Shown: in pieces, positions 28,617 to 31,020 of the stretch
How positions within the stretch are numbered: the first letter of the stretch is position 1
Layout of the letters: the number at the start of each line of letters is the position of its first letter
Assembly (NCBI GenBank): GCA_011526375.1
Contig: WTIT01000087.1
Coordinates: forward strand, 13,059 to 56,454
Direction: 5' to 3'
Origin: Methanobacteriota archaeon
GTDB lineage: Archaea; Thermoplasmatota; Poseidoniia; Poseidoniales; Poseidoniaceae
DNA length: 43,396 nucleotides
Made by a program: the position numbers and the translations under genes
Notes under the pieces: generated by a model
Seen by the model: only the letters and a program-made list of their open reading frames with translations
Databases searched by the model: none
What the model was told of the DNA's origin: nothing

Positions 28617-29285
28617 ATGGGTAGAAGACACGAAGAGAAAGTCGACGAAGAAGAACTAGCTCGTCTGGAGAATCCAGAGGATGGTTCGTCTGGTAAGATT
28701 CGTGTCAAAATGCCCAACCGTCGAATCAACGAGATGTTTGCTCTAGCCGATCAAATTCTCGGTGGCAGAAGAGTCTCAGTTCTATGTGAAGATGGTGAAA
28801 CTAGATTAGCTAGAATTCCGGGAAAAATGCGTCGACGTCAATGGGTTAGAGAAGGCGATTTGATAATTGTCTGGCCATGGGATTTTCAAGATTCAAAAGC
28901 CGATGTAAAGCATCGATATACCAAAACTCAGGCTATGTATTTGTCAAGAAAGGGCGTCTTACCAGACGATGTTGATGTCTTTGGCATGAATGTCACCCAC
29001 GACGATGATGATGAACACAGCGATATTTTTGGCGTTGTTGAGGATGAATTTGATGACATCGAATCAGTAGAAGATGATAGTGACGATGATGTTGATGACA
29101 TGTTTGGTAGTGATGATGATGATGACGTCGATGATATGTTTGCATCATCGGATGATGAAGCAGATGAAGAAGAGACAACTGAGGTTGTAGAAGAGGAATT
29201 TGTCCCTGTTGAAGAGTATCCTGATTCTGGTGATGACGAAGACGATGATGACGATGATATTGACATTGATTCGTTGTTTGGATGA
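28617..29285 (+). CDS. eif1a: Translation initiation factor aIF-1A with long acidic C-terminal tail
   Basis: GKIRVKMPNRRINEMFALADQILGGRRVSVLCEDGETRLARIPGKMRRRQWVREGDLIIVWPWDFQDSKADVKHRYTKTQ is the aIF1A OB fold; followed by a D/E-rich tail. Confidence 0.94.
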   Translation: MGRRHEEKVDEEELARLENPEDGSSGKIRVKMPNRRINEMFALADQILGGRRVSVLCEDGETRLARIPGKMRRRQWVREGDLIIVWPWDFQDSKADVKHRYTKTQAMYLSRKGVLPDDVDVFGMNVTHDDDDEHSDIFGVVEDEFDDIESVEDDSDDDVDDMFGSDDDDDVDDMFASSDDEADEEETTEVVEEEFVPVEEYPDSGDDEDDDDDDIDIDSLFG

Positions 29286-29306: not shown

Positions 29307-30275
29307 TTGAAAGACCGAAGCGATGATTGGGATGAGCTTGCAATCAATAAGAATCGTAATCGTCGAAAGAAGTCGAGGCGAAAGAACTCAAAACCACTAA
29401 ATCAAGATGAAATCGATGACAGAGACTTTGTCGGTTCGCTTGAAACCTCATCGGGGAAATATGAATGGATGAAAGAAAAACGTTACAAGTCTATTTTCAG
29501 AGATATTGAAAATAAAATTCAAGGAGCGATGGGCAAAGGTCCTTTTGAATGGGTAGATAGGCGAGTTTTCGACCAGGTTTTTGATCGACTAACCCTTATG
29601 TCATTATACAAATTAATGAAAAACGAAGTTATTGACACGGTTGATTTCCCAGTCGCAAGAGGGAAGGAGGCGCATGTTTTTCACGGAACAGACCCACAGG
29701 GCAAGCCTGTAGCGATCAAAATTTTCCATACCTCAAACGCGGTGTTCAAGAATTTGATTCAATATATCGAAGGTGACCAAAGATTCGGTGGATTAAGACG
29801 AAGACACCGCGATTTAGTTGATATTTGGGTTAGGAAAGAACAGAGAAATTTGGCACGATTGTCAAAGTGGGGGCTGAGAGTTCCAAAGCCATTAGGATTA
29901 AACAAGAATGTTCTCGTAATGGAATATCTTGGCGATGATACCTCTCCATATCCTAAGTTGCGGGAAGTATTAGTGGAAAATCCACAAGAAGTCTTCGATG
30001 AATTATTGGAGTTTCTTGCTGTATCTTGGCAAAAAGCCAACCTTGTTCACGGAGATTTCTCTCCGTTCAATATTCTATGGACTAACGATGGTCCAGTGGT
30101 CATTGATGTGGGGCAAGCAGTGATTCAGTCGCATCCAAAAGCTCAAGAATTTCTCATTCGGGACGTGACGAGATTAGTTGAATGGGCTAACAAAAATGGC
30201 ATTGAAATAGATTTAGCAGAAGCAATGTACGAAGTCCTCAATATGGATTTGAGTCACGTTAAAGAAGAAGTGTAA
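29307..30275 (+). CDS. rio1: RIO1-family serine/threonine protein kinase
   Basis: VARGKEAHVFHGTDPQGKPVAIKIF, LVHGDFSPFNILW, VVIDVGQAV; TTG start, directly downstream of aIF1A. Confidence 0.92.
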   Translation: MKDRSDDWDELAINKNRNRRKKSRRKNSKPLNQDEIDDRDFVGSLETSSGKYEWMKEKRYKSIFRDIENKIQGAMGKGPFEWVDRRVFDQVFDRLTLMSLYKLMKNEVIDTVDFPVARGKEAHVFHGTDPQGKPVAIKIFHTSNAVFKNLIQYIEGDQRFGGLRRRHRDLVDIWVRKEQRNLARLSKWGLRVPKPLGLNKNVLVMEYLGDDTSPYPKLREVLVENPQEVFDELLEFLAVSWQKANLVHGDFSPFNILWTNDGPVVIDVGQAVIQSHPKAQEFLIRDVTRLVEWANKNGIEIDLAEAMYEVLNMDLSHVKEEV

Positions 30276-30287
30276 ATCATTCTTCTT
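30262..30287. terminator. Hairpin shared by two convergent gene ends
   Basis: AAGAAGAA (30262-30269) pairs perfectly with TTCTTCTT (30280-30287) across the 1-nt gap between rio1 and the KH gene; two further pairs are possible with one bulged G. Confidence 0.35.
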
Positions 30288-31020
30288 CCCAAGTGATATT
30301 CTCATCATCGGATAGTTCCATCATTTCTGCAACCGCTTCCTCATCTTCAGGGTCAACTTGACTAGCGCGCATTCTTCTAGAGCGTCTATCGCTCACCTCA
30401 GAAAGTCCAGGCACGAGATTTTCAAATCCGCCATCACTTGGTTCCACGGCCTTCAACTCGATTGAATCTAGTGAACGGTTAGATAGTTTTGCTCTCCTTC
30501 GGTCTTTTTCCAAGTAGCCTAAAACGGAACCGTGTTCAGATCCACCGGCCAGCATTTCAATCGCTTGTCTAGCAGCAAACAAACCCTCTTGTTCACCAAT
30601 AATTACTACAGTAGATTTGTAAATGGTGATTTCAGTATCCGTAAGGTTCTCAATCAATTTACGCACCTTACCTTGGCTTCCAATTATTCTAGAACGTACT
30701 CTACGTTGCTGATTTGACCTTTTTCCGACAAAGTCTCTAAGGTCTACCATTTCGAAGAAATGTTGGTCATCAAACAACCTGATTGCAGCCTTGGGCGCCA
30801 TTCCTCGACCAATCGCTTTGATCACATCTGGTAATTTCATCGCTTTAACGGGGTCATAACTGCCAGCTGCGCCCCACTGAACCTCAACATCACCGGTTTC
30901 AGAATTGATGAATAAATCTTCACAGCCAGACGCTTCTCGAATAGACTTAGCAGTCGCACCTTTAGAACCAATCAAGACAGCAATTCTGTCTTTAGGTACT
31001 CTAGGAAGTCCCTGTCGCAT
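30277..31020 (-). CDS. KH-domain RNA-binding protein, Dim2/Pno1-like (ribosome biogenesis)
   Basis: Two KH-like modules: VLIGSKGATAKSIREASGCEDLFINSETGDVEV and RIIGSQGKVRKLIENLTDTEITIYKSTVVIIGE; neighbourhood of aIF1A and Rio1 matches the conserved archaeal gene association. Confidence 0.9.
   Translation of the reverse strand: MRQGLPRVPKDRIAVLIGSKGATAKSIREASGCEDLFINSETGDVEVQWGAAGSYDPVKAMKLPDVIKAIGRGMAPKAAIRLFDDQHFFEMVDLRDFVGKRSNQQRRVRSRIIGSQGKVRKLIENLTDTEITIYKSTVVIIGEQEGLFAARQAIEMLAGGSEHGSVLGYLEKDRRRAKLSNRSLDSIELKAVEPSDGGFENLVPGLSEVSDRRSRRMRASQVDPEDEEAVAEMMELSDDENITWEEE

Follow-up and report, generated by a model that had tools for sequence, protein, structure and literature searches.

The window, the 43,396-nucleotide stretch of DNA analyzed here, comes from a Poseidoniales (marine group II) genome, and the nearest loci that carry a name come from Candidatus Poseidoniaceae and Poseidoniales. 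It carries the gene for initiation factor aIF1A, which runs from an ATG at 28617 to a stop codon at 29283 to 29285 and encodes 222 amino acids arranged as a short conserved N-terminal extension, an OB-fold core, and an acidic tail (Table 1). The product scored 68.8 bits against Pfam eIF-1a (PF01176; cutoff, 30.2). Because eIF-1a was the only domain detected, with no stalk protein fold (PF00428 and relatives) found in the same search, the product is not a stalk protein. Its best PDB relatives are archaeal aIF1As; it shares the OB-fold core with the canonical proteins of P. abyssi (4MNO and 5JB3) and M. jannaschii (1JT8) over residues 25 to 118 (E = 7e-27 to 7e-23), although those chains, at 102 to 134 residues, stop just past the core. 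Orthology to structures 5JB3 and 6SW9 suggests that the factor binds in the 30S A site. An AlphaFold2 model built from 21 sequences (the window protein and relatives) gave the OB core a pLDDT of about 75 to 87.

Table 1. Features of the aIF1A locus in the window
Feature	Position	Strand	Basis
aIF1A gene	28617..29285	+	ORF; Pfam eIF-1a, E=3e-19; one copy in the genome
OB-fold core (Pfam eIF-1a, residues 38-100)	28728..28916	+	Pfam; AlphaFold2 OB strands
DDVDVFG, residues 117-123; canonical core end, not a tail mini-motif	28965..28985	+	tail-less relatives stop here; eIF1A equivalent
Acidic, disordered, Poseidoniales-specific extension	28986..29282	+	composition; low pLDDT; absence in sister order and other Thermoplasmatota
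Element 2, DDDDEHSDIFG, residues 129-139; acidic-hydrophobic-F motif	29001..29033	+	alignment of relatives
Internal repeat DDVDDMFG, residues 157-164	29085..29108	+	
Internal repeat DDVDDMFA, residues 169-176	29121..29144	+	
C-terminal IDSLFG-COOH, residues 217-222; stalk-like peptide	29265..29282	+	conservation in relatives; aP1/aP0 ends
RIO1-type kinase, conserved downstream neighbor	29307..30275	+	Pfam RIO1, E=1.7e-52; gene order kept in relatives
KH protein (Krr1/Pno1-like), conserved neighbor	30277..31020	-	Pfam KH_1, KH_KRR1_2nd

The N-terminal extension of Poseidoniales aIF1A, GRRxEExVDEExLAxL (28617 to 28667 in the window), includes many invariant alignment positions; neither the sister order nor the other Thermoplasmatota read showed it. 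Residues 11 to 18 are helical in the AlphaFold2 model. In genus g4 (L051, L053, and other g4 loci), an 8-residue insertion precedes the first OB strand (PNGGKKRGEFGFKGEMF versus PNRRINEMF).

The order aIF1A, RIO1, KH is preserved in the relatives whose sequences extend to these genes, and nuoM/nuoN usually lie upstream. A comparison of KH gene orientation that took in the window and L046, L048, L049, and L054 showed the KH gene opposite to aIF1A-RIO1 in most relatives and codirectional with them in some. This is an ordinary set of translation and ribosome biogenesis genes and indicates no partner for the tail. The initial annotation had listed Rio1 and the KH protein as candidate partners to model, a suggestion whose only basis is this neighborhood. 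Docking of the tail on a biogenesis factor encoded next door would suit the conserved gene order, but the order persists in genomes with few internal copies of the tail motifs described below (L046, L048, and L049) and therefore does not track the repeats, and we saw no sequence evidence of contact; we consider such docking improbable.

Counted from the end of residue 116, the tail spans residues 117 to 222 (28965 to 29282), and its 106 residues include 39 Asp and 16 Glu (55 acidic residues, or 52%), 7 Phe, and no Lys or Arg. The long D/E-rich tail reported in the initial annotation is thus borne out. Five [VIML]F[GA] motifs lie within it, a number reached in 0 of 100,000 shuffles of the same sequence. 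All of the motifs quoted in that annotation are present; the first, DVFG, nevertheless belongs to the core. It stands at this position in all Poseidoniales aIF1As, where it aligns with ETDTFG of human and ETDNFG of yeast eIF1A, and tail-less relatives terminate there: the aIF1A of the sister order (f3, same class) ends in ILDIY at the position of the first motif, and the proteins from 20 further Thermoplasmatota loci finish with LDIF, VDVF, VDVFNER, VDVFGK, and similar sequences, most of them 6 to 8 residues and at most about 20 residues past the core. DVFG was accordingly rejected as the first member of the tail array. With DVFG read as the end of an ordinary core, the alignments place the start of the extension proper after DVDVFG, at about 28986, and leave four motifs in the tail proper of the window protein.

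In the AlphaFold2 model, the tail has a pLDDT mostly below 50 (residues 139 to 211), with a short, low-confidence helix at residues 218 to 221 (pLDDT, about 60). This is compatible with a disordered tether but supports no further conclusion. Element 2 recurs in 53 of 58 Poseidoniaceae tails, and its F138 is invariant in the alignment. Most differences between the two DDVDDM repeats of the window are synonymous.

To gauge conservation, we compared 78 distinct complete Poseidoniales aIF1A tails. Every complete Poseidoniales aIF1A that was read has a tail, with a median length of 93 residues past the core and a median acidic fraction of 0.47. A hydrophobic-Phe pair falls within the last five residues in 77 of the 78, and 69 end exactly in [LFMIV]F[GA]; the single genome without a terminal motif is L144 (genus g22, in the second family). 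The commonest ends are IDALFA (22 tails), INDLFG (14), IDSFFG (11), and IDSLFG (5). LFA or VFA closes the tail in about a third of the relatives; elsewhere the end is FFG, SLFGPA with two extra residues (five tails), or LFD or LFE (three tails). The terminal Phe is encoded by TTT and TTC equally (36:36), and six codons are used for the Leu; what is kept is thus the amino acid sequence rather than the DNA, which argues for selection at the amino acid level. Internal motifs total 156, compared with 5.1 expected from shuffled tails (maximum, 14), and share the consensus D-D-[LM]-F-[GA] around the Phe. Among the 75 tails without ambiguous residues, all 58 from Poseidoniaceae have at least one internal copy and up to five, while 12 of the 17 from the second family have none. 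The C terminus is the best-conserved part of the tail, and repeat number varies freely (0 to 5); therefore, the conserved element is the terminal motif and not the number of repeats.

These patterns bear on whether the tail is neutral low-complexity sequence produced by slippage of GAT repeats, an origin suggested by its GAY-rich DNA and by the variability of both repeat number and tail length. The retention of 77 of 78 terminal motifs despite synonymous codon turnover, the excess of internal motifs, and the synonymous differences among repeats of one gene largely refute this origin, to which we assign a minimal probability. The initial annotation had named poor conservation among relatives as a sign of neutrality; the alignment instead shows tail and motifs conserved across the order. 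The impression of a multivalent docking tail that it recorded is likewise upheld, as an appearance.

Neither the sister order nor any other Thermoplasmatota read has the tail, and it is likewise missing from the archaeal aIF1A chains in the PDB. The aIF1As of H. volcanii are about 11 kDa (PMC8576121) and so are tail-less as well, and literature searches turned up no description of a tail like this for the aIF1A of marine group II or Asgard archaea. Its absence from the sister order and from other Thermoplasmatota makes the tail probably convergent with that of eIF1A, as initially suggested; this is the parsimonious reading for the sample covered (Thermoplasmatota and PDB chains).

The tail shares several features with that of eukaryotic eIF1A: it occupies the same position in the same ortholog, starts at a DxFG, is acidic and disordered (here 52% D/E with no Lys or Arg and a low pLDDT), and closes with I-D-x-hydrophobic. 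The eIF1A C terminus (DEDIDDI in human) contacts eIF5B, a contact required for subunit joining (PMC4231746, PMC6122471), and mutating the last isoleucine reduces joining (PMC4231746). Docking of the same kind, in which the terminal I-D-x-[LF] would sit on domain IV of aIF5B with the same end effect (aIF5B recruitment and subunit joining), is a rival explanation that we think unlikely. The tail ends in F-G/A and not in isoleucine, in contrast to a DIDDI-like motif: the window protein ends in IDSLFG and relatives in LFG, LFA, or FFG, and an internal [LM]F[GA] array is present. As far as sampled, the tail appears independent of the eIF1A tail, the related archaea covered being tail-less. Furthermore, Poseidoniales aIF5B retains the C-terminal region, with its helix, seen in other archaeal aIF5Bs, which has been offered as a possible reason why archaea lack eIF1A-type docking on domain IV (PMC7531240). 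The DIDDI-type resemblance first noted for the tail end is not supported as written; that end lies nearer to the archaeal stalk C terminus (LGSLFG/LGDLFG) than to DIDDI.

In Poseidoniales genomes, we located aP1 and aP0, the ribosomal stalk proteins, with PF00428 and through inspection of adjacent genes. Both end in a Glu/Asp run followed by GF[DE]GLG[SD]LFG and retain the [LM]FG end, and the window's IDSLFG has the same form, namely, an acidic C terminus ending in hydrophobic-x-x-[LM]-F-G. We then scanned all ORFs of G011, a complete 2.06-Mb genome of the same genus as the window. Only four had an acidic [LIMVF]F[GAS] C terminus (aIF1A, aP0, aP1, and a 392-amino-acid HEAT-like protein); relaxing the scan brought in a small number of unrelated acidic proteins with a hydrophobic-F end. 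When C-terminal hexamers were scored against a matrix built from stalk C termini, LEDLFG of the G011 aIF1A ranked 4th among 5,757 ORFs, after aP0, aP1, and one HEAT-like protein, with 12.6 bits compared with 3.3 bits for the fifth-ranked ORF. The window's IDSLFG scored 3.2 and the LFA variants still lower, and dozens of unrelated ORFs matched as well as IDALFA and IDSFFG did, which weakens the stalk-likeness argument for these ends. Acidic [LMIV]F[GA] motifs number four in the G011 aIF1A and two in the runner-up protein. The HEAT-like protein (L333; G011:C1:453434-454612) ends in DDDDEEFSGLGSLFG, a perfect stalk C terminus; it was rejected as a second conserved stalk mimic since just 2 of the 38 family genomes contain homologs.

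Published work on aP1 suggests how the likeness could be significant. Its conserved Leu/Met and Phe engage aEF1A whichever nucleotide is bound, the L-F pair being the contact common to the GDP and GTP forms; the Phe also occupies hydrophobic pockets of aEF2, aIF5B, and ABCE1; the aP1 end is helical in the aEF1A-GDP complex; and deletion of LFG from the last 14 residues of aP1, SEEEALAGLSALFG, abolishes aEF1A binding (PMC6791870). The aIF1A tail resembles the stalk C-terminal domain (aP1 and the aP0/uL10 end) in its acidic stretch followed by hydrophobic-x-x-[LM]-F-G at a free C terminus, in its disordered tether, and in the multiple copies per assembly. In contrast, aIF1A lacks the stalk fold, carries the peptide on a 30S-bound initiation factor, has acidic or polar residues in place of the GLG that precedes LFG, and bears its copies in series along one chain.

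The tail might instead act on the 30S subunit itself, as a Phe-bearing acidic element that reaches the P site and tunes start codon selection in the manner of the eIF1A scanning enhancers SE1/SE2, with no protein partner. The acidic tail of eIF1A has two scanning enhancers (PMC6412873), and yeast eIF1A presents DNFGFESDED...NFEFGNAD in an acidic context. This account would, however, leave the best-conserved C terminus and its stalk likeness unexplained, and long-range scanning is said not to occur in archaea (PMC6412873); we judge it distinctly unlikely.

The reading that we favor, while holding its chances to be about evenly poised, is that the tail end is a stalk-peptide mimic by which the 30S-bound factor would recruit one of the translational GTPases, aIF5B being the likeliest. 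aIF1A and aIF5B act jointly at a late step of initiation. The tail would be a disordered acidic tether ending in a docking peptide (an acidic stretch and then hydrophobic-x-x-[LMF]-F-[GA]) that is repeated internally in Poseidoniaceae. From aIF1A in the 30S A site, it would present this peptide to the stalk-binding pocket of the GTPase, raising the local aIF5B concentration before the 50S stalk arrives and thereby promoting subunit joining. The terminal copy would be essential, and the internal copies would give avidity or rebinding. The job would be that of the eIF1A tail with eIF5B, done via another peptide and probably another pocket. Pocket binding, the choice of aIF5B, and the effect on joining are all inferred, the binding from motif resemblance, and aEF1A, aEF2, and ABCE1 are possible partners as well. 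Because Poseidoniales aIF5B keeps the archaeal C-terminal region, the stalk pocket seems a more probable site of contact than domain IV. No aIF1A-aIF5B contact is known in archaea, with the missing extension and the extra helix of aIF5B domain IV as possible reasons (PMC7531240).

Several observations count against stalk mimicry. The LFA/VFA, FFG, LFD, LFE, and SLFGPA ends diverge from the [LM]FG of aP1/aP0, L144 has no terminal motif, and the GLG before [SDA]LFG is missing in aIF1A. The internal copies have no free C terminus, and short acidic-hydrophobic peptides may bind many things.

The aIF5Bs of L284 to L287 (genera g1 and g10; the window's genome is L286) carry a zinc-finger-like insertion, roughly 31 residues long, that follows the domain II region and contains Cys-x2-Cys plus additional Cys/His residues (MCSKC...H...C in G011); the other Poseidoniales genera checked lack it. 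Being confined to two of the checked genera and not tracking the tail, it was rejected as a docking site.

Poseidoniales are an exception to review statements that archaeal aIF1A has no acidic C-terminal extension (PMC6412873, PMC7531240), and the likeness of the aIF1A tail to the aP1/aP0 ends of the same genomes, as read from their sequences, is new here. We speculate, at rather less than an even chance, that an aIF1A with a serial array of stalk peptides lets the 30S subunit recruit a GTPase by the code of the large-subunit stalk before the large subunit itself arrives, as a second, independently evolved form of the factor 1A-to-5B handover that eukaryotes have. If so, the coupling of factors 1A and 5B would have arisen at least twice, and the stalk peptide would be a transferable element open to adoption by other proteins.
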